Of a stretch of DNA of 60,567 nt, positions 7,007-60,023 are shown piece after piece. The stretch is from contig DATKSK010000036.1 in assembly GCA_035531755.1 (NCBI GenBank), forward strand, positions 1-60,567, in the 5' to 3' direction. The notes under the pieces were generated by a model, which searched no databases, was not told where the DNA came from, and saw nothing but the letters and a program-made list of their open reading frames with translations. Source of the stretch: Acidimicrobiales bacterium (lineage in GTDB: Bacteria; Actinomycetota; Acidimicrobiia; Acidimicrobiales; UBA8190). The translations under genes were made by a program, and so were the position numbers. Position 1 is the stretch's first letter; every line of letters starts with the position of its first letter.

Positions 7007-10000
7007 TCAGGCGAAGGCGCGGACGAGGATGTCCTCCTGCTCCAGGTGGTGCAGTGCCGCGCTCCCCGTGGCCGGGCTCGCCGACTCCGCCCGGCTGACA
7101 TGGGTCAGGACGAAGCGCTCCCGCAGGAGCCGGTGCAGTCGCCCGTGGACGAACGACCACGCCCCCATGTTCTCAGGCTCCTCCTGCACCCAGACAACCT
7201 CGTTCGCGGCCGGGTACCGGTCCATCACCGCGGCCAGCTCCCGCTCGGGCCAGGGAAAGAGCTGCTCGACGCGCACGACGGCGACGGCCGCGGGGTCCAC
7301 GCCGGGGACAGGGAGCCCCGCCTCGCCACCGGTCAGCGCCTCGCGGCGGGCCATGGCGTCGAAGGCCACCTTGCCCGAGCACAGCAGGACCCGCCGCACC
7401 GCACCGGGCTCGACCGGTCGCGCCACCGCCGGAGCACCCCGGCCACCGGTCGCGGCCGGGTCGTCGACGACCTCGGCGAACGAGCCCACCGTGAGATCGT
7501 CCATGGCCGAGCGCGAGGCGCGGGCCCGGAGCAGCGACTTGGGCGTGAACACGACCAGCGGCCGGTGGCCGATGCCCCGCACCTGGGAGCGCAGCAGATG
7601 GAAGTACTGCGCCGCGGTGGTGGGCTGGGTCAGGCGCATGTTGTCGCGCGCGCACAGGGTGAGGAAGCGCTCGATGCGCGCCGAGGAGTGTTCCGGGCCC
7701 TGGCCCTCGTACCCGTGCGGGAGCAACAGCACGAGGCCCGACCGTTGTGCCCACTTGTCCTCGGCGGCGACGAAGAAGTTGTCGATGATGATCTGCGCCC
7801 CGTTGGCGAAATCGCCGAACTGCGCCTCCCATGCCACCAGCGCCTCGGGGGACGCCACGGAGTAGCCGTACTCGAACCCCACGGCGGCGTACTCCGACAG
7901 CAGCGAGTCGTAGACCCCGAAGTGCCCGATCCCCTCCCCCGGCAGGTGCGCCAGGGGGACGCGCTCCTCCCCGGTGTGGTAGTCGACGAGCACGGCGTGG
8001 CGCTGGCTGAAGGTCCCCCGCCGCGTGTCCTGGCCCGACAGCCGGACGTCGGTGCCCTCGAGGAGGATGGAGCCCAGGGCCAGCGCCTCGCCGAGGGCCC
8101 AGTCGACCTCGCCGCCGGCCACCATCTGGGCCCGTTGCCCGAATTGGCGCAGCAGCTTGGGATGCACCGTGAACCCCTCGGGCACCGCCGTGGCCGCGGC
8201 CACCAGGCGCTCGAGCTCGTCGCGGGCGACCCCCGTCGGCACCGCGGCCGGGGGCTCGACGGGTGCGGCGGGCGTCGGCAGCGCCGTGGGGTGCGGGGGT
8301 GCGGCCTGGCGGGTCTCGTCGAGCGCCACCTGCAGCCGGGTCTGGAAGTCCTCGAGCGCCCGCTCGGCCTCGTCGAGCGTGATGTCGCCCCGGCGCACCA
8401 GCGACTCGGTGTAGAGCTTGCGCACCGAACGGGTGCCTTCGATGATGGCGTACATGCGCGGCTGGGTGTAGCTGGGGTCGTCACCTTCGTTGTGCCCGTG
8501 GCGCCGGTAGCACACGATGTCGATGACGACATCCTTGTGGAACGCCTGCCGGAAGCCGAACGCCAGCCGCGCGGCGCGCATGCAGGCCTCGGGGTCGTCG
8601 CCGTTCACGTGGAACACGGGGGCCTGCACCATCTTGGCCACGTCGGTCGGGTACACCGACGACCGCGCCGACTCCGGAGCGGTGGTGAACCCCAGCTGGT
8701 TGTTCACGACGACGTGGACGGTGCCGCCGGTGCGGTACCCGGTGAGCTGCGACAGCTCGAGCGTCTCGGCGACCACCCCCTGGCCCGCGAAGGCGGCGTC
8801 GCCGTGGACCAGCACCGACAGCACGTCGAAGCACCGGTCTCCACCGAGCATGTCCTGCTTGGCCCGGGCCATGCCCTCGACCACGGGGTCGACGGCCTCG
8901 AGGTGCGACGGGTTGGATGCCAGCGTCACGGGGATCTCGGCGCTCGACCGCCCCACGAACTTGCCCGTGGCCCCCTTGTGGTACTTCACGTCGCCCGTTC
9001 CCTGGACCGAATTGGGATCGAGGTCGCCCTCGAATTCGCGGAAGATCTCCCCGTACGACTTGCCCACGATGTTGACCAGGACGTTCAGCCGTCCCCGGTG
9101 GGCCATGCCCAGCACCGCCTCGCTCAGGCCCGCCTCGGCTGCCTCGTCGAGGACGGTGTCGAGCAGGACGATGGTGGACTCGGCGCCCTCCAACCCGAAC
9201 CGCTTCTGCCCCACGTAGCGCGTGTGGAGGAACCGCTCGAAGGCTTCGGCGGCGTTGAGCCGGTCGAGGACGTGGCGCTGCTCGGCAGGGTCGAGGGAGG
9301 CGGGGACGCCCTCGAGGTGCTGCTGGATCCACTGCTTCTCCTCGGGATCCTGGATGTGCATGTACTCGACGCCGAGCGTGCGGCAATAGGCATCGCGCAG
9401 GATGTCGAGCGCCTCGCCGAGGGTGAGGGTGTCCCGCCCGGCCAGCCCGTCGACCACGAACTCGCGGTCGAGGTCCCACAGGGTGAGCCCGTAGGTGGTG
9501 GGGTCCAGCTCGGGGTGCAGGGGCCGGGCCTCGGCGGACAGTGGGTCGAGGTCGGCGATGAGGTGCCCGCGCACCCGGTACATGTTGATGAGGCTCTGGA
9601 CGTGGACCTGCTTCACCAGACGCCGGTACTCACCGTCCCCGGCGTTGACGTCGGGCTGCCAGCGCACCGGCTCGTAGGGCACGTCCATGGCCGAGAACAC
9701 CGACTCGTAGAAGCCGTGCCCGCCGGTGAGGCAGTCGGCCACGTACGCCAGGAAGAGCCCGGATTCCGCCCCCTGGATGATGCGGTGGTCGTAGGTCGAC
9801 GTCAGCGTGACCACCGGGCCCACACCGAGCTCGGCCAGGCTGCGCGGGTCCGCCGCCTGGTACTCGGCGGGGTACCCGAGGGCCCCGACCCCGACGATGG
9901 CGCCCTGGCCGGGCATCAGCCTCGGCACCGATTGCACCGTCCCGAGGGTTCCCGGGTTGGTGAGGGTGACCGTGGCCCCGGCGAAGTCGTCGGGGCTCGC

Positions 10001-10765
10001 CTTGGCGGTATGGACCTTGCGCACGAGGTCCTCGTAGGCCATGACGAAGCCCCGGAAGTCGAGCACCTCGGCACCGCGCACGACGGGGACCATCAGCGTG
10101 CGCGTCCCGTCCGACTTGGCCACGTCCACCGCCAGCCCGAGGCCCACGTGGTCGTGGCGCGCCACGCCCGGTGTGCCCTTGCCGTCGGCATCGGGGACGA
10201 ACCCGGCGTTGAGCGTGGGCACCGCCTCGAGCCCGCGGACGACGGCGAAGCCGATCAGGTGCGTGAAGCTCACCTTCCCCCCGGACGTGCGCGCCAGATG
10301 CCGGTTGAGCACGGCCCGGTTGACCTCGAGGAGCTTGGCGGGGACGGTGCGCACGCTCGTGGCGGTGGGGACCGACAGCGACGCCTCCATGTTCTTGGCG
10401 ATGCGGGCCGCCGCCCCACGCAACGCAGAAGTGGCGTGACCGTCGTCGGTGCGAGGCCCGGGAGCGGCCGCCGGCGCCTGGCCTGTCGGCGCCGTCGTCG
10501 GCGGGGACGCCGCCGGGGCCGGTGCAGCCGGGGCCGGTGCCGCCGGGGCCGGGGCCGCCGACGTCGGGTGCGCCGGAGCCGGTGCGGTCGCCGCCAGCGT
10601 GGCACCCCCCACCGGCACGTAGTCGGCGAAGAACTCCCGCCAGCTCTCGCTCACCGACGACGGGTCGCTGCGGTACTGCTCGTACATGTCGTCGACCAGC
10701 CAGGCGTTGGGGCCGAAGGCACCTCCGGCGGCGGGGCTCGTGACGCTGACCTGGTCTTCGGACAT
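7007..10765 (-). CDS. kgd: Multifunctional 2-oxoglutarate decarboxylase/dehydrogenase (E2-E1 fusion)
   Basis: The protein is 1252 residues, the usual length for actinobacterial Kgd/OdhA. Residues 1-45 are the E1 N-terminal helix (YEQYRSDPSSVSESWREFF). An Ala/Pro linker follows (about 60-95), then an E2-type succinyltransferase domain to about 345 with the active-site motif YDHRIIQG. The thiamine diphosphate E1 domain fills the rest (VLGMAHRGRLNVLVN, HGDAAFAGQG, RRHGHNEGDDP). There is no lipoyl domain, as expected for this family. It decarboxylates 2-oxoglutarate in the TCA cycle. In mycobacteria and corynebacteria the activity is held in check by a GarA/OdhI FHA protein; none is visible here. 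The start fits a TAGGAT box 8 bases upstream. Confidence 0.95.
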   Translation of the reverse strand: MSEDQVSVTSPAAGGAFGPNAWLVDDMYEQYRSDPSSVSESWREFFADYVPVGGATLAATAPAPAHPTSAAPAPAAPAPAAPAPAASPPTTAPTGQAPAAAPGPRTDDGHATSALRGAAARIAKNMEASLSVPTATSVRTVPAKLLEVNRAVLNRHLARTSGGKVSFTHLIGFAVVRGLEAVPTLNAGFVPDADGKGTPGVARHDHVGLGLAVDVAKSDGTRTLMVPVVRGAEVLDFRGFVMAYEDLVRKVHTAKASPDDFAGATVTLTNPGTLGTVQSVPRLMPGQGAIVGVGALGYPAEYQAADPRSLAELGVGPVVTLTSTYDHRIIQGAESGLFLAYVADCLTGGHGFYESVFSAMDVPYEPVRWQPDVNAGDGEYRRLVKQVHVQSLINMYRVRGHLIADLDPLSAEARPLHPELDPTTYGLTLWDLDREFVVDGLAGRDTLTLGEALDILRDAYCRTLGVEYMHIQDPEEKQWIQQHLEGVPASLDPAEQRHVLDRLNAAEAFERFLHTRYVGQKRFGLEGAESTIVLLDTVLDEAAEAGLSEAVLGMAHRGRLNVLVNIVGKSYGEIFREFEGDLDPNSVQGTGDVKYHKGATGKFVGRSSAEIPVTLASNPSHLEAVDPVVEGMARAKQDMLGGDRCFDVLSVLVHGDAAFAGQGVVAETLELSQLTGYRTGGTVHVVVNNQLGFTTAPESARSSVYPTDVAKMVQAPVFHVNGDDPEACMRAARLAFGFRQAFHKDVVIDIVCYRRHGHNEGDDPSYTQPRMYAIIEGTRSVRKLYTESLVRRGDITLDEAERALEDFQTRLQVALDETRQAAPPHPTALPTPAAPVEPPAAVPTGVARDELERLVAAATAVPEGFTVHPKLLRQFGQRAQMVAGGEVDWALGEALALGSILLEGTDVRLSGQDTRRGTFSQRHAVLVDYHTGEERVPLAHLPGEGIGHFGVYDSLLSEYAAVGFEYGYSVASPEALVAWEAQFGDFANGAQIIIDNFFVAAEDKWAQRSGLVLLLPHGYEGQGPEHSSARIERFLTLCARDNMRLTQPTTAAQYFHLLRSQVRGIGHRPLVVFTPKSLLRARASRSAMDDLTVGSFAEVVDDPAATGGRGAPAVARPVEPGAVRRVLLCSGKVAFDAMARREALTGGEAGLPVPGVDPAAVAVVRVEQLFPWPERELAAVMDRYPAANEVVWVQEEPENMGAWSFVHGRLHRLLRERFVLTHVSRAESASPATGSAALHHLEQEDILVRAFA

Positions 10766-11778: not shown

Positions 11779-11812
11779 CGTCAGGCGGGGGGAGGCGTCA
11801 GGCGGGGACGCG
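11779..11812. repeat. 17-bp tandem duplication over the acyl-CoA dehydrogenase stop codon
   Basis: The core CGTCAGGCGGGG starts at 11779 and again at 11796. Each copy carries TCA, the TGA stop on the minus strand (11798-11800 is the gene's own stop, 11781-11783 the extra one in another frame). Confidence 0.8.
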
Positions 11813-13030
11813 CGACTGGGCCCACGACCGGTCGCCCTCGACGTCGACGTCGTGGGGCAGCCCGAGGACGCGCTCGGCGATGATGTTGCGCTGCACCTCC
11901 GACGTCCCGCCGCCGATGGTGAGCGCCCGAGAGAACAGATAGCCCTTGGCCCACGCCGACGACGGCCAGCCCGACGCCTCGCCCGTCTCGTCTGCCCCGG
12001 GTTGCGTGGCCCCCGGTGCCCGGCGCAGCTGCGCGAGCCCTTCGGCCGGACCGCCGTCCGCCAGCTGCCCGTGCATCCCGGCGAGTCCCTTGGCCAGCTC
12101 CATGACGTGCTGGCCGTGGTCGTCGGCGAGCGCTTTGCGCACCGATGCCTCGGGCCCCGGCTCGCGGCCCGACAGCGCCGCGCTCACCGTCCGCAGCCGG
12201 ATGAGCCGCAGCACCTCCCCTTCCGCCCACACCTGGACGAGGCGCTGGCGCATCACGGCATCGGGAACGCCCCCGGACCGGCGGGCGAGGTCGACCAGCT
12301 CGGCGGCCGTGGGCCCCTGTCCCCACAACGCCCCCTCGCCCGACAGCGACACGCGCTCGTTGCCGAGCGTCACCTTGGCGAGGGCCCAACCCCCGTTGAC
12401 CTCGCCCACGAGGTTCTCGGGCGGCAGGCGCACCTCGTCGAGGAACACCTCGTTGAAGGCGTGGTCGCCGGTCATGTCGACGATGGGACGGACCGTCACC
12501 CCCGGTGCGTCCATGGGGCACACGAAGTAGGAGATGCCACGGTGCTTCGGGACGTCGGGGTCCGTGCGGGCGAGCAGGATCCCGAGCGCTGAGACATGCG
12601 CGTAGCTGGTCCACACCTTCTGACCGCTCACGACCCATTCGTCGCCGTCGCGCACGGCTCGGGTGGACAGCCCCGCCAGGTCCGATCCCGCCCCCGGCTC
12701 GGAGAACAGCTGGCACCAGATCTCCTCGCCCGCCAGGAGGGGCAGGAGGTAGCGCTGCTTCTGGGCGTCGGTGCCGGCGTGCACGAGCGTGGGCCCCGCC
12801 CACCCGATGCCGATCTGGTTGAACGGCCGGCGCACGCCGGCGCGCCGCAGCTCGTCGTCGATGACCAGCTGCGCCACGGGGTCGGCGTCGAGGCCCCACG
12901 GGCGCGGCCAGTGCGGGGCCACGTAGCCGGCCTCGGCGAGCCGGCGCGGGCTCGGATCGGGGTGCTCGGCCAGCCAGGCCCGGAACTCGGCGCGGGCGGG
13001 ATGGTCGTCTCCGGGAAGGGCGAGGTCCAC
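11798..13030 (-). CDS. Acyl-CoA dehydrogenase family protein
   Basis: The protein is 410 residues. FAD/acyl-CoA signatures are clear: FSEPGAGSDLAGL and VVSGQKVWTSYAH in the middle, and IGGGTSEVQRNIIAERVLG at the C-terminus. The position that holds the catalytic Glu in medium-chain enzymes is Gly here (GGGTSE), as in many actinobacterial paralogues that place the base elsewhere. An insertion of about 30 residues (around APGATQPGADETGEASG) precedes the last helix. It oxidises an acyl-CoA to the enoyl-CoA and reduces FAD. The GTG start follows a TACGCT box by 8 bases. It is divergent from an acyl-CoA synthetase gene, which suggests a shared acid-activation and oxidation pathway. Confidence 0.9.
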   Translation of the reverse strand: MDLALPGDDHPARAEFRAWLAEHPDPSPRRLAEAGYVAPHWPRPWGLDADPVAQLVIDDELRRAGVRRPFNQIGIGWAGPTLVHAGTDAQKQRYLLPLLAGEEIWCQLFSEPGAGSDLAGLSTRAVRDGDEWVVSGQKVWTSYAHVSALGILLARTDPDVPKHRGISYFVCPMDAPGVTVRPIVDMTGDHAFNEVFLDEVRLPPENLVGEVNGGWALAKVTLGNERVSLSGEGALWGQGPTAAELVDLARRSGGVPDAVMRQRLVQVWAEGEVLRLIRLRTVSAALSGREPGPEASVRKALADDHGQHVMELAKGLAGMHGQLADGGPAEGLAQLRRAPGATQPGADETGEASGWPSSAWAKGYLFSRALTIGGGTSEVQRNIIAERVLGLPHDVDVEGDRSWAQSRVPA

Positions 13031-13038
13031 GGCGATGC

Positions 13039-13048
13039 AGCGTAGGCT
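13039..13048. promoter_or_regulatory. Overlapping divergent -10 boxes
   Basis: The ten bases AGCGTAGGCT hold TAGGCT on the plus strand (6 bases before the GTG at 13055) and TACGCT on the minus strand (8 bases before the GTG at 13030). The two boxes share the central TA. Confidence 0.6.
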
Positions 13049-13054
13049 GCCGCC

Positions 13055-14671
13055 GTGACCGACTGGAACTTCGCCGACGTCTGGGAGACCGTCGCCGACA
13101 CCGTGCCGGACGCGCCGGCGTTCATCCACGGTGAGCGGCGCCTGACCTGGGGGGAGACCGAGGGCCGCGCCAACGGCGTGGCCCGGGCTCTGCTCGAGTC
13201 GGGGGTGGCCCACCAGGACAAGGTGGCGCACTACCTCTACAACGGCCCCGAGTACCTGGAGTCGACCTTCGGCATCTTGAAAGCGGGCCTCGTCCCCGTG
13301 AACACGAACTACCGCTACACCGACGACGAGCTCGTCTACCTGTGGGACAACGCCGACGCCGTGGCGGTCATCTTCCACGGTGCTTTTGTCGAGCGCATCA
13401 CCGGCATCCGTTCGCGCGTGCCCACCGTCCGCTCGTGGCTGTGGGTCGACGACGGCTCGGGCGAGTGCCCCTCGTGGGCGACGCCCTACGAAGCGGCGGC
13501 GACGAGCGGCGCCGACCGGTCGGCGCCTCCGTGGGGGCGGTCGGGCGACGACCTCTACCTCCTCTACACCGGGGGGACGACCGGCATGCCCAAGGGCGTG
13601 ATGTGGCGTCAGGACGACCTGTTCTGCCGGCTCAACGCCGGGAACTTCCTGCGCGTGCCCGAGGACGGGGGGCTCGAGGGGGTGCGCAAGGCGATCGTCG
13701 GCGCGGGGCCCGTCCACCTCCCCGCCTGCCCGCTCATGCACGGCACCGGCGGGTTCACGTCCATGGCCGCCATGACCATCGCCGGGTGCGTCGTCACGCT
13801 CACCGGCCGCCGCTTCGAACCCACCGAGCTGCTCGACACCATCGACCGGGACAACGTCAACACGGTGGCCATCGTGGGCGACGCCTTCGCCAAGCCGATC
13901 CTCGCCGCCCTCGACGAGCACCCGGGCCGCTGGCGCCTGTCGACGCTGCTCGCCTTCGTGTCGTCGGGCGTCATGTGGAGCGAGGAGACCAAGCGGGGGC
14001 TGCTCACGCACCACCCCACCCTGATGCTCATCGACGCCTTCTCGTCGTCGGAGGCACTGGGCATGGGGTCGTCGGTGTCGAGCGGGACGGCCGCCGAGCA
14101 CACGGCCCGATTCACGCTGAGCCCCGACGTGCGCGTGCTCGACCCGGAGTCGGGCAAGGACGTGACCCCCGGGTCCGGCGAGGTGGGCGTGCTCGCCCTC
14201 GGTGGCCGCAACCCGCTCGGCTACTACAAGGACGCCGACAAGTCGGCGAGCACGTTCAAGGTCATCGACGGGGTGCGGTACTCGGTGCCCGGCGACTTCG
14301 CCACCGTCGACGCCGACGGCGCCATCCAGCTCCTCGGCCGCGGCTCGGTCGTGATCAACACCGGCGGGGAGAAGGTGTTCCCCGAAGAGGTCGAGGAGGT
14401 GCTCAAGCGGCACCCGACGGTGCGCGACGCGGTGGCCGTGGGCATCCCCGACGACCGCTTCGGGCAGGCGGTGGCGGCGGTGGTGGAGCTCCGCCCCGGC
14501 GCCGAGGCGACCGAGCGCGAGCTCGTCGACCACGTCCGGGGGCACCTGGCCGCCTACAAGGCGCCCAGGCGGGTGCGCTTCATCGACACCATCGGCCGGT
14601 CGCCCGCCGGCAAGGTGGACTACGCCCGCCACCGGGCCGAAACGACCGAGTGGGCGACGACGCCCGTCTGA
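13055..14671 (+). CDS. Acyl-CoA synthetase (AMP-dependent synthetase/ligase)
   Basis: The protein is 538 residues. The ATP-binding loop is LLYTGGTTGMPKGVMW. Downstream motifs are GDFATVDADG, LLGRGSVVINTGGEKVFP and the C-terminal SPAGKVDY with the adenylation Lys. The enzyme activates a carboxylic acid through an acyl-AMP to acyl-CoA in the cytosol; chain length or a steroid substrate cannot be read from sequence. It is transcribed divergently from the acyl-CoA dehydrogenase from overlapping -10 boxes. The GTG start is fixed by the TAGGCT box 6 bases upstream. Confidence 0.92.
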   Translation: MTDWNFADVWETVADTVPDAPAFIHGERRLTWGETEGRANGVARALLESGVAHQDKVAHYLYNGPEYLESTFGILKAGLVPVNTNYRYTDDELVYLWDNADAVAVIFHGAFVERITGIRSRVPTVRSWLWVDDGSGECPSWATPYEAAATSGADRSAPPWGRSGDDLYLLYTGGTTGMPKGVMWRQDDLFCRLNAGNFLRVPEDGGLEGVRKAIVGAGPVHLPACPLMHGTGGFTSMAAMTIAGCVVTLTGRRFEPTELLDTIDRDNVNTVAIVGDAFAKPILAALDEHPGRWRLSTLLAFVSSGVMWSEETKRGLLTHHPTLMLIDAFSSSEALGMGSSVSSGTAAEHTARFTLSPDVRVLDPESGKDVTPGSGEVGVLALGGRNPLGYYKDADKSASTFKVIDGVRYSVPGDFATVDADGAIQLLGRGSVVINTGGEKVFPEEVEEVLKRHPTVRDAVAVGIPDDRFGQAVAAVVELRPGAEATERELVDHVRGHLAAYKAPRRVRFIDTIGRSPAGKVDYARHRAETTEWATTPV

Positions 14672-14709
14672 GCGGTGCCCCCGGGCGCGAGCCCGGAGCC
14701 CTCGGTGCC

Positions 14710-15531
14710 GTGACGGGCTGGCCGGTTGACGCCGCCGCCGCCGGCGTGGTGCTTCTCGACGGGGCCGTGGCCGAGACCGTGGGCGACCTCGACCGGGCCT
14801 TCCCGTGGGCGTCGGTGTCGAAGCTGCTCGTGGCCGTGGCCGCTCTGGTGGCGACGGAGGAGGGCTCGCTCGGTCTCGATGAGCCCGCGGGCCCGCCGGG
14901 GTCGACCGTTCGCCACCTGCTGGCCCACGCCTCGGGGCTCGGGCCCGACTCGCCGCACCCCCTCACCGAGCCGGGCGTGCGCCGCATCTACTCCAACATC
15001 GGGTTCGAGATCCTCGCCGACACCCTGGCGCAGCACTCGGGCATGCCCTTCACCGACTACCTCACCACCGGCGTGGTCCTCCCCCTGGCGATGACCGGGA
15101 CGCGGCTGGCCCCCGGGGCGTCACCGGCGTCGGGCGCCCTCGGCCCGCTGCGCGACCTCTTGACGCTCGCCGGCGAGCTGCTCGCCCCGCGCCTGGTGGC
15201 TCCGGGCACCCTGGCCGCCGCCACCACCGTGGCCTTCCCGGGCCTGGCGGGCGTCCTCCCCGGCTTCGGGCGGTTCGACCCCTGCGACTGGGGCCTCGGC
15301 TTCGAGCTCCGTGACGGCAAGCGCCGGCACTGGACCGGGGCGCGCAACTCGGCCGCCACGTTCGGGCACTTCGGCCAGTCGGGCAGCTTCCTGTGGGTGG
15401 ACCCGGTGGCGGGCGTGGCCTGCGCCGCGCGGGGCGACCGGCCCTTCGGCCCGTGGGCCGTGGACGCCTGGCCCGCCCTGGCGGATGCCGTGCTCGAGCA
15501 CTGGGGCGGGCAGGGCGGGCAGGGGCCGTAG
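14710..15531 (+). CDS. Beta-lactamase/class C PBP-like serine hydrolase
   Basis: About 273 residues. The SxxK nucleophile motif is ASVSKLLV near residue 37, the YxN motif is IYSNIGFE, and a late HFGQSGSF replaces the KTG-type motif. There is no signal peptide, which argues against a cell-wall target and for a cytosolic esterase-type member of the family. The start is uncertain: the GTG at 14710 gives a compact protein, while an in-frame GTG at 14650 would overlap the synthetase gene. The two genes are probably co-transcribed. Confidence 0.75.
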   Translation: MTGWPVDAAAAGVVLLDGAVAETVGDLDRAFPWASVSKLLVAVAALVATEEGSLGLDEPAGPPGSTVRHLLAHASGLGPDSPHPLTEPGVRRIYSNIGFEILADTLAQHSGMPFTDYLTTGVVLPLAMTGTRLAPGASPASGALGPLRDLLTLAGELLAPRLVAPGTLAAATTVAFPGLAGVLPGFGRFDPCDWGLGFELRDGKRRHWTGARNSAATFGHFGQSGSFLWVDPVAGVACAARGDRPFGPWAVDAWPALADAVLEHWGGQGGQGP

Positions 15532-45863: not shown

Positions 45864-45870
45864 GGACCAT

Positions 45871-45876
45871 TAGCCT
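45871..45876 (+). promoter_or_regulatory. TAGCCT -10 box for cofD, leaderless type
   Basis: The box ends 6 bases before the GTG at 45883. On the minus strand the overlapping TAATGG could serve the glycosyltransferase gene. Confidence 0.55.
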
Positions 45877-45882
45877 TGCGCC

Positions 45883-46812
45883 GTGATCACGGCCCTCGCC
45901 GGAGGAGTTGGCGCCGCCCGCCTGCTGCGTGGCCTGGTCCGGGTGGTGCCGCCGGGCGACGTCACGGCCGTGGTCAACACCGGGGACGACACCGTGCTCC
46001 ACGGCCTGCACATCAGCCCCGACCTCGACACCGTGACCTACACCCTGGCGGGGCTCAACGACGACGAGCGCGGCTGGGGCCTCGCCGGCGAGACGTGGAC
46101 CGTCATGGAGCGCCTCGGGCAGCTCGGCGGGCAGGCGTGGTTCCGCCTCGGCGACCGCGACCTCGCCACCCACCTCTACCGCACCCAGCGCCTGTCCGAG
46201 GGCGCACCGCTGTCGCAGGTCACCGCCGAGCTCACCGCCGCGCTCGGCGTCGGGGCGCGGCTGGTCCCGATGTCCGACGACCCTGTCCGGACCATGCTGA
46301 CGCTGGTGGGCGGGCCCGAGATCTCCTTCCAGGAGTACTTCGTGCGCCACCGGCATGCCGTGGCGGTCGAGGCCGTCCGCTTCGCGGGCGCCGAGGCCGC
46401 AGCCCCCGCACCCGGGGTCCTGGAGGCCATCGCCCGGGCCGACCGGGTGGTCGTGTGCCCGTCGAACCCCGTCGTCTCCATCGGGCCCCTGCTGGCGGTG
46501 CCCGGCATCGCCGACGCGCTGGCGGCACGCCGCGACGACGTCGTGGCGGTCTCCCCCATCGTCGCCGGCGCCGCGCTGAAGGGCCCGGCCGACCGGCTGC
46601 TCACCGAGCTCGGCCACGAGTCGACGGTCGTCGGCGTCGCCCGCATGTACACCCCGCTCGTGGGCACGCTCGTGGTGGACGAGGCCGACGCCGCGCTGGT
46701 GGGCGACGTCGAGGCGTGCGGGCTCAGGTGCGTCGTCGCCCCCACGATCATGCGCACACCGGCGCTGGCCGAGGCGCTGGCCGGGCTCTGCGCCGTCGGC
46801 GCGTCCCGGTGA
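45883..46812 (+). CDS. cofD: 2-phospho-L-lactate transferase family enzyme of F420 biosynthesis
   Basis: The protein is 309 residues (FbiA in mycobacteria). The N-terminus ALAGGVGAARLLRGL binds the lactyl-phosphate precursor; VVNTGDDTVLHGLHISPDLD is the family's metal and substrate signature; ISFQEYFVRHRHAV and VVVCPSNPVVSIGP are further conserved blocks. It transfers the phospho-lactate/PEP-type moiety from the guanylylated precursor to Fo, giving F420-0 or dehydro-F420-0. It is followed four bases later by cofE. The pair is inserted among minus-strand glycan genes. Confidence 0.94.
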   Translation: MITALAGGVGAARLLRGLVRVVPPGDVTAVVNTGDDTVLHGLHISPDLDTVTYTLAGLNDDERGWGLAGETWTVMERLGQLGGQAWFRLGDRDLATHLYRTQRLSEGAPLSQVTAELTAALGVGARLVPMSDDPVRTMLTLVGGPEISFQEYFVRHRHAVAVEAVRFAGAEAAAPAPGVLEAIARADRVVVCPSNPVVSIGPLLAVPGIADALAARRDDVVAVSPIVAGAALKGPADRLLTELGHESTVVGVARMYTPLVGTLVVDEADAALVGDVEACGLRCVVAPTIMRTPALAEALAGLCAVGASR

Positions 46813-57275: not shown

Positions 57276-58202
57276 TCAGCCCGAGGTACGCAGGTGCACG
57301 ACGTCGCCCGCCGCCACCGTCTTCAGGCAGGTGCCCACGTCCACGACCAGGTGGCCCTCCACGGTGATGTCGGCGGCGGTACCCGTGAAGTCCCCGTCGG
57401 AGCCCGACACGCGCACCACGCGCCCCAGGGTGGTGCAGCGGCGCCGGTACTCCCCGGCCATGGCCCGCCGGCCCTCGGCCGTCGCCAGGGCGGCCACCCG
57501 GGGCTCGAGCGCGACGAGCAGGTGGTCGAGCACGTCGGCGGGCGCCGGGTGCAGGCCGGTCTCGCGCCAGATGGAGGTGGCGGTCCGCAGGACCTCGTCA
57601 TGCTCCGCCGACCCCGGGCCGTCGACGGCGGTCGTCTCGGGACCGGCACCCTCGGGTGGTGGCCAGCCGACGTTGAGGCCCAACCCGACCACCACCGCCG
57701 GGTGGGCGCCGGCCGCATCGGTCGCGGGCGGCGCGGGCGGTGCGGGCGGTGCGGGCTGCGTGGGCGGCACGAGGGGCGCGGGCGGCATCGGCTGCGTGGG
57801 CGGCACGAGGGGCGCGGGCGGGATCGACTCGGCCAGGATGCCGGCGAGCTTGCGGTCCCCGACGACCAGGTCGTTGGGCCACTTGAGCTGCGGCACGAGG
57901 CCGGCGGCCCGCTCGCAGGCGTCGGCGGCGGCGAGGGCCACGGCCACGGTGCACAGGTGCAGCTCCTCGACCGCCAGCGCCGGCCGCAGCAGCACCGACA
58001 CGAGCAGGTTCGACCCGGCGGGCGCCTCCCAGCGGCGCCCGAGGCGCCCCCGGCCGGCGTGCTGGTAGTCGGCCACCACCACCACGCCCTCGGGCGCCCC
58101 CGCCCGCGCCTCGTCGAGCAGGTACCGGTTGGTGGAATCGATCTCGGCGAGCCGCCGCACGGAGGTGAACCGGGTCCCCGCCGGCCCGGCCGCGGCGCAC
58201 AT
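57276..58202 (-). CDS. birA: Biotin--[acetyl-CoA-carboxylase] ligase
   Basis: The protein is 308 residues. Catalytic motifs are [27 protein letters not shown] (biotin/ATP loop), [18 protein letters not shown] and [13 protein letters not shown]. There is no N-terminal DNA-binding domain, so it is a ligase only, not a repressor. An insertion of about 45 residues, almost all Pro/Ala ([11 protein letters not shown] units), sits between the two last motifs, where other BirA proteins have a short loop. It is divergent from the biotin-dependent carboxylase subunit, its probable substrate. The ATG follows a TAGGGT box by 7 bases. Confidence 0.93.
57754..57825. repeat. 36-bp in-frame duplication in birA plus short 9-bp units
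   Basis: Two near-identical 36-bp units code for [13 protein letters not shown]. They are flanked on the left (57722-57755) by 9-bp GCGGGCGGT-type units coding PAPPAPPAP. Confidence 0.85.
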
Positions 58203-58209
58203 GGCACCT

Positions 58210-58215
58210 ACCCTA
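58210..58215 (-). promoter_or_regulatory. TAGGGT -10 box for birA, leaderless type
   Basis: The box ends 7 bases before the ATG at 58202 on the minus strand. Confidence 0.5.
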
Positions 58216-58259
58216 CGGCCCGTGCCAGTGTTGTGGTTTCCTCACGTGAAAGGCTCCGT

Positions 58260-60023
58260 GTGCTGCGCAAAGTCCTGATCGCCAACCGGGGAGAGATCGC
58301 CGTGCGGGTCATCCGCACGTGCCGCGAGCTGGGCGTCCCCACCGTCGCCGTGTACTCGGAGCTCGACCGCGACGCCCTCCACGTCCGCCTGGCGGACGAG
58401 GCGTACCCCCTGGGCGGCCAGAGCGCGGCGGAGAGCTACCTGAACACCGGCGCCATCCTGGACGCCATCACCCGCAGCGGCGCCGACGCCGTGCACCCCG
58501 GGTACGGCTTCTTCTCAGAGAACGCCGACTTCGCGCGCGCCATCTCGTCCTCCGGCGTGACCTTCATCGGGCCGCCGCCCGGGGCCATCGAGATCATGGG
58601 CGACAAGATCAGCTCGCGCCGCGCCGCCGAGGCGGCGGGCGTGACGGGGGTCCCGGGCCGGACCGAGCCGCTCACCGACCCATCCCAGGTGGCCGAGTTC
58701 GGCGCCGCCCACGGGTGGCCGGTGGCGATCAAGGCCGCCTACGGCGGTGGCGGGCGGGGCATGAAGGTGGTGTCGTCGCCCGACGAGGTGGCCGAGGCGG
58801 TCGAGTCCGCCCAGCGCGAGGCCCAGGCGTACTTCGGCCGCCCCGAGATCTACGTCGAGAAGTACCTCGACTGGCCCCGCCACATCGAGATGCAGGTGAT
58901 CGCCGACACCCACGGCAACGCCCTGTGGCTCGGCGAGCGCGACTGCTCCCCCCAGCGCCGCCACCAGAAGCTCGTCGAGGAGAGCCCGGCGGCCGCCTTC
59001 CCCGACGAGGTGCGCCGGGCCATGGGCGAGGCCTCCGTCACGGTGGCCAAGGCCTGCGGGTACGTGAACGCCGGCACCGTGGAATTCCTCTACCAGGACG
59101 GCGAGTTCTTCTTCCTCGAGATGAACACCCGCCTGCAGGTGGAACACCCCGTCACCGAGCTCGTGACCGGGCTCGACCTCGTGGAGTGGCAGCTGCGCGT
59201 GGCCTCGGGCGAGCCGCTCGGCTTCACCCAGGACGAGGTGCAGCACAACGGGCACGCCATCGAGGTGCGGATCAACGCCGAGGACCCCGCCGGGGGGCGC
59301 TTCGTGCCGTCGCCGGGGACCATCACGGCCCTGCGGGCGCCGGGCGGGCCGGGTGTGCGCCTCGACGCCGGGTACGAGGCGGGCGACACCGTCAGCCAGT
59401 ACTACGACAATCTCGTGGCGAAGCTGATCGTGTGGGGTCGGGACCGCGAGGCGGCCCGCCGCCGGATGCTGCGGGCGATCGACGAGACCGTGATCACCGG
59501 CGTGGCCACCACCCTGCCCGCCGACGTCGCCATCCTGTCGCACCCCGACTTCATCGAGGGCCGCCATTCAACCCGGTGGGTGGAGGACCGCCTCGACCTG
59601 TCGTCGCTGGTACCGGCCGCTCCGGCCGACCCCGGTCCCGCCGCCGGCCCGGGCGACCCCGCCGGCCCCCGCGTGCTGCGCGAGGTCACGGCGGAGGTCG
59701 ACGGCCGGCGCTACGAGGTGCGGCTCTGGGTCCCCGACGTGGCGGCCACCGGCTCCGCACGCGGCGGCGCCCGCCCCCAGAAGCCCCGGGCCGCGGTGGC
59801 CGGGTCGGGGTCGGGCACGGTGGCCGTGCCGATGCAGGGAACGATCGTGAAGGTCCTGGTGGCCGAGGGCGACGAGGTCGAGATCGGCCAGACCGTGTGC
59901 GTGCTCGAGGCCATGAAGATGGAGAACGCCATCAGCGCCGAGAAGGCGGGGACGGTGAAGGAGGTCAAGGTGGCGGCGGGCGACTCGGTCGGGCCCGGCG
60001 ACGTGATCGCCGTCATCGAGTGA
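58260..60023 (+). CDS. Acyl-CoA carboxylase alpha subunit (biotin carboxylase plus biotin carrier domain)
   Basis: The protein is 587 residues. The biotin carboxylase part begins [19 protein letters not shown], with the ATP-grasp Gly-rich loop [27 protein letters not shown] and [14 protein letters not shown]. The C-terminal carrier domain has the biotinylated Lys in EAMKMEN (about residue 553). This is the AccA1/AccA3-type subunit that carboxylates acetyl-, propionyl- or longer acyl-CoA with a separate beta subunit, not seen here. The GTG start has AAAGG upstream. Divergent birA would attach the biotin. The stop overlaps the next GTG. Confidence 0.94.

Follow-up and report, generated by a model that had tools for sequence, protein, structure and literature searches.

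A ten-base core with a -10 element on each strand as a predicted bidirectional promoter for two leaderless acyl-CoA genes in an Acidimicrobiales genome

Introduction

Bidirectional promoters reportedly arise from -10 symmetry, a finding credited to Warman et al. 2021. They are defined by divergent RNA starts that lie 7-25 bp apart (PMC10268837), with a start spacing of 18 bp the commonest, 10 and 23 bp also common, and small variations (PMC12825309). Two opposed polymerases cannot occupy such a promoter together, and E. coli examples show repression of the opposite direction upon activation; the basal activity of all five E. coli promoters tested was insufficient for polymerases to compete substantially, and at bioA/bioB one core serves linked genes (PMC12825309). 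Two actinobacterial studies place TANNNT just upstream of ATG or GTG in about one-fifth to one-quarter of genes with a mapped primary start, and report leaderless mRNAs from both genes of the divergent prpD/Rv1129c pair of M. tuberculosis (PMC3898074, PMC4895711).

Here, we analyse a candidate for a promoter of both kinds at once. It lies in a window of 60,567 nucleotides, the whole stretch of DNA under analysis, which is contig 36 of the 77 contigs in the 3.28 Mb genome of an Acidimicrobiales bacterium. An acyl-CoA synthetase gene and an acyl-CoA dehydrogenase gene diverge from a gap of 24 bp, and the original prediction, made from this sequence alone, held that ten bases within the gap start both.

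Results

Anatomy of the core and its flanking genes

The locus is made up of the following features:

13039..13048, no strand: ten-base bidirectional promoter core AGCGTAGGCT, predicted from the sequence and conserved in homologous loci
13043..13048, plus strand: -10 element TAGGCT of the acyl-CoA synthetase gene, ending 6 nt before the GTG at 13055
13039..13044, minus strand: -10 element TACGCT of the acyl-CoA dehydrogenase gene, ending 8 nt before the GTG at 13030
13031..13054, no strand: intergenic gap of 24 bp with the whole double promoter inside, read from the sequence
13055..14671, plus strand: acyl-CoA synthetase (PRK07798 type), 538 aa, GTG start supported by homolog alignment, predicted leaderless (PF00501, PF13193)
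11798..13030, minus strand: acyl-CoA dehydrogenase, 410 aa, GTG start supported by homolog alignment, predicted leaderless (PF02770, PF00441, PF02771)
14650..15531, plus strand: beta-lactamase-family protein from gene calling, overlapping the end of the synthetase gene

The original prediction of a -10 box on each strand of 13039-13048, with the central TA in common, is borne out: TAGGCT is read on the plus strand and TACGCT on the minus strand, and the TA at 13043-13044 belongs to both hexamers, so that -10 elements of opposite strands overlap as they do in bidirectional promoters. Both genes have their -10 element within the leaderless range of 6-9 nt from the start codon (6 and 8 nt), and on direct reading neither spacer, GCCGCC or GCATCGCC, contains a Shine-Dalgarno stretch. 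When the 24-mer was shuffled at constant composition, 152 of 400,000 shuffles reproduced the shared arrangement.

The synthetase scores above the NCBIfam PRK07798 cut-off, and among the named relatives with the dehydrogenase, Acidimicrobiales/Acidimicrobiia and other metagenome assemblies of actinobacteria predominate. It is plausible that both enzymes belong to one pathway, acyl-CoA formation and then dehydrogenation, and the beta-lactamase-family gene is probably co-transcribed with the synthetase. Elsewhere on the minus strand (7007-10765), the window encodes a 1252-aa fusion of 2-oxoglutarate dehydrogenase and an acyltransferase domain, and TAGGAT, a box of the leaderless type, lies 8 nt ahead of the gene's start.

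We consider it highly probable, from comparative sequence, that the core acts as a bidirectional promoter of the housekeeping type which does not depend on a -35 element and gives two leaderless mRNAs. RNA polymerase with a housekeeping-type sigma factor would bind the core in either orientation; the TA at 13043-13044 would serve as T-12/A-11 on both strands, with melting there, and the outer T on each side of the core would be -7. Transcription would start at or beside the GTG in each orientation, within the roughly 5 nt of the start codon that mark a leaderless gene, which would make both mRNAs leaderless, and the box positions predict a start-to-start distance of 23-25 bp. The 8-nt spacer on the minus strand places the dehydrogenase start 9 nt past its -7 T, which is slightly long, and it is possible that the RNA of this gene begins 1-3 nt upstream of the GTG.

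Leaderless genes elsewhere in the genome

The rule against which both boxes were read comes from 20 genome stretches plus the window (438 kb), in which 365 genes were called by a purpose-made gene finder based on codon-usage log-odds. Its starts are approximate, and some that it missed or misplaced (a short thioesterase gene, the Fpg start) were hand-corrected from the reading frames; start codons were fixed at ATG/GTG(/TTG) and spacers at 6-9 nt. TANNNT was found 6-9 nt before the start in 57 of the 354 genes with 60 nt upstream, as against 5 and 8 for two scrambled motifs. By spacer, the 57 divide into 22 at 6 nt, 16 at 7 nt, 13 at 8 nt and 6 at 9 nt, and no comparable TANNNT peak appeared at other distances in the 354 genes. 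The commonest hexamers were TAGCCT (10 genes), TACGCT (8), TAGCGT (7), TAGGCT (5) and TAGGGT (5). Since TACGCT and TAGGCT are among them, both boxes of the acyl-CoA pair are typical leaderless -10 elements of this genome. The 57 leaderless promoters of the sample, aligned on the hexamer, showed no -35 signal; a conserved -35 is likewise absent in M. tuberculosis (PMC3898074).

Conservation at homologous loci

A total of 150 homologous loci were taken in three sets (30 + 80 + 40), the last 40 being 40 of the next 41 synthetase matches after the first 30. One further stretch, L186, was left out of the analysis. By the criteria used, 81 had no head-to-head pair and 69 did, and removal of 4 duplicates left 65. 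Among these, TANNNT at 6-9 nt from an in-frame start precedes the dehydrogenase gene in 56 loci, the synthetase gene in 36 and both genes in 28, and the TA is shared in 18. For the same four counts, seven control motifs gave at most 7, 18, 3 and 0 of 65, and TANNNT at three wrong spacer ranges at most 4, 3, 1 and 0 of 65. These comparisons support the original prediction that the starts, 6 and 8 bases away, have no leader, and both genes are predicted to be leaderless.

In the window's own family, the locus was looked at in 15 of the 16 genomes with a synthetase match, and 11 of the 15 carry the shared doubly leaderless core. The remaining four are L017, with the core and a leadered synthetase, L016, with separated boxes, and L014 and L148, with no head-to-head pair by the same criteria. 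This bears on whether only a single direction works, the other box being a chance or relic match. Some homologs do retain one leaderless box, the dehydrogenase's only in 16 of the 65 loci and the synthetase's only in 8. Both hexamers of the window, however, are top motifs at the right spacing, both boxes are retained in 11 of the 15 family loci, and the 24-bp gap is too short for another leaderless box or a ribosome-binding leader, so that we regard a one-way promoter as improbable.

On a tree of the dehydrogenase, built from 62 of the 65 loci (three with too short a dehydrogenase were left out), the shared state occurs in both main halves and requires 8 label changes, 4 of them forced by well-supported branches. 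The arrangement is therefore either old or of more than one origin, and it has been repeatedly gained and lost.

The shared core is also kept in 12 of the 65 loci in which the synthetase start lies beyond the leaderless range, so a shared core does not require that both genes be leaderless. By a loose test, 10 of the 12 have a Shine-Dalgarno-like stretch, and the shared core may make a leadered synthetase mRNA there. The gaps of some of the loci have peculiarities of their own. In L017, the shared core and the apparent synthetase start are separated by an out-of-frame repeat of the gene's first 41 nt, which is either a real duplication or an assembly error. In L028 and L115, the first codons of the synthetase (ATG CCG GGT TGG) occur a second time after a leaderless-type box, with a GC-rich inverted stretch also present ahead of the leadered start; this might be a short upstream reading frame.

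Loci in which the genes have moved apart

Separation of the two genes decouples the two boxes. In L016 (gap 96), the dehydrogenase-side copy of the core, AGCGTAAAGC, has lost the T needed by the synthetase alone, and the synthetase-side copy, CGCGTAGGCT, has lost the A needed by the dehydrogenase alone. L011 (gap 117), which shares its family code with the compact L008, has the same split across a tandem repeat. In L022 (gap 36), there are two complete TAGGCT boxes, arranged back to back, and in L024 the dehydrogenase retains TACGCT and the synthetase has TAAGAT as its box. None of the 10 loci with separate leaderless boxes has the forward T in the dehydrogenase-side core, a count that is weak alone, as T occupies only about 14% of neighbouring positions. 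The roles are reversed in family f40 (L025, L026, L027, L031, L113), where the synthetase is leaderless and the dehydrogenase has no box; an AGGAG-type stretch precedes the dehydrogenase start in 4 of these 5 loci (by eye).

The separated loci also speak to the symmetry of the core, an imperfect palindrome (AGCSTAGGCT) that is perfect in four loci (AGCCTAGGCT in L004, L023, L128 and L132). A near-palindrome could be the operator of a regulator, e.g. a fatty-acid responsive repressor, with the two -10 matches secondary, and the retention of the exact AGCGTAGGCT in eight loci with a leadered synthetase fits such a role. Against this, the symmetry breaks when the genes separate, each half retaining its own gene's box alone, and unrelated gene pairs use the same geometry with other inner bases. 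Moreover, AGCSTASGCT occurs at just 2 places in the genome (control 9), and in the stretch read around the second, no gene start fits, which gives no sign of a regulon. We therefore hold an operator to be very unlikely and keep to the bidirectional promoter.

Other gene pairs with the same geometry

A search of the window's genome for two start codons around ANNNTANNNT returned 9 matches, compared with 7 for the control, and 17 family genomes gave 171 matches, compared with 149 (sums). The bare pattern is thus not enriched in bulk in either set, and the signal is confined to real gene starts: 5 of the 9 own-genome matches lie between two real divergent genes, the acyl-CoA pair included. A search for the arrangement elsewhere had been suggested with the original prediction, and it yielded four other gene pairs in the same genome, given here with their recurrence in 12 relative stretches that were picked for an already seen similar match:

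formamidopyrimidine-DNA glycosylase and FrhB-type protein: core recurs in 2 relatives
uracil-DNA glycosylase and histidine phosphatase: core recurs in 5 relatives
GNAT acetyltransferase and Gfo/Idh/MocA oxidoreductase: core recurs in 2 relatives
4HBT thioesterase and amidohydrolase (named after relative L178, the own 248-aa fragment having no Pfam match): core recurs in 1 relative

The formamidopyrimidine-DNA glycosylase (Fpg) frame opens V-PELPEVE, and since we take the PELPEVE N-terminus to be invariant in this family, the leaderless start looks exact. The start is less certain in 4 of the 5 uracil-glycosylase relatives, whose frames align only from residue 14-40 onwards. A sixth pair, seryl-tRNA synthetase and ABC ATPase, has a TA-centred double -10 core in three relatives (L182, L183, L184); in the window's own genome (contig C23, L192) the core of this pair and the serS start are 10 nt apart. 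At C30:143828-145784 (L158:13828-15784), two predicted promoters of the TA-shared, doubly leaderless kind lie within 2 kb, each with one DNA-repair glycosylase gene, of the Fpg type and the uracil type, as a partner.

The other 4 of the 9 matches (C28:48109, C55:91029, C71:2592 and C72:28035) were rejected, since on our reading they do not separate two genuine gene starts. With a swapped-base control pattern, 5 places in the own genome matched, and inspection by eye of translations and positions put none of them between two gene starts. The original prediction had also named 45867-45876 (CCATTAGCCT) as the same arrangement. Its plus strand offers a good -10, TAGCCT, 6 nt before the CofD gene at 45883; the minus strand fails, since its hexamer TAATGG has no final T and the nearest minus-strand GTG is just 3 nt off, and the site is no valid example. 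The 18-bp geometry (TANNNTA between two starts) was tried as well and dropped, with 5 own-genome matches versus 15 for the control. Its only match in the window, TACCCTA at 58200-58224, stands beside the leaderless start of a biotin-ligase-family gene (58202, minus strand); on the plus side no ORF of at least 100 aa is listed from the other start, and the sole called gene starts at 58260 without a matching box.

Discussion

If the core works in both directions, what the sharing is for becomes a separate matter. Two ordinary leaderless promoters may simply have been pushed together, the sharing being a by-product of crowding that has no regulatory meaning, and we lean slightly towards this. Leaderless promoters are common in the genome, sharing has been repeatedly lost while both genes stay, and competition is slight in the E. 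coli promoters at their basal activity (PMC12825309). It is harder to reconcile with crowding that the exact TA-shared register is found in 18 of the 28 loci with both leaderless boxes and recurs at five unrelated pairs of the window's own genome; yet geometry alone may favour this register, since two TANNNT boxes cannot overlap in several other ways. Crowding concerns the purpose of the arrangement and not its mechanism, and is compatible with the bidirectional promoter that we propose. More tentatively, and in our judgement rather doubtfully, TA-shared doubly leaderless promoters could form a selected class in the Acidimicrobiales, a fixed module of 22-25 bp from gene to gene in which one polymerase site couples expression, long kept at unrelated pairs.

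The original prediction added that only one direction can fire at a time. As steric geometry this stands (PMC12825309), and mutual exclusion would be expected here; as a statement about regulation it is weakened by the little competition that the same source describes in E. coli at basal activity. The core might also coordinate the two enzymes.

A span of 30 bp takes in the promoter, the start codons and the predicted RNA starts of both genes, and the unit has been disassembled repeatedly in nature. This compactness and natural disassembly make it a system, testable base by base, for asking what role bidirectional promoters play for paired genes. It also suggests that such promoters could be sought from sequence only, as two leaderless starts flanking one core, in GC-rich bacteria for which RNA data are lacking.

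Within the literature searched, which took in few subscription papers, we did not find one ten-base core that gives two leaderless mRNAs, conserved order-wide and present at multiple gene pairs. The locus resembles the published symmetric -10 promoters in its overlapping -10 elements, its predicted close divergent starts and its spacing of the 23-bp type (PMC12825309). It differs from them in that both genes are predicted to be leaderless, with start codons at the predicted RNA starts, and in that no -35 signal is seen in the sample. With the leaderless genes of actinobacteria it has in common TANNNT just upstream of GTG starts, whereas two leaderless genes on one -10 core are not described in the available sections of those studies (PMC3898074, PMC4895711). 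Each of the components, overlapping -10 elements, a 23-bp spacing and leaderless genes in actinobacteria, is thus already published; what appears to be new at this locus is their combination.
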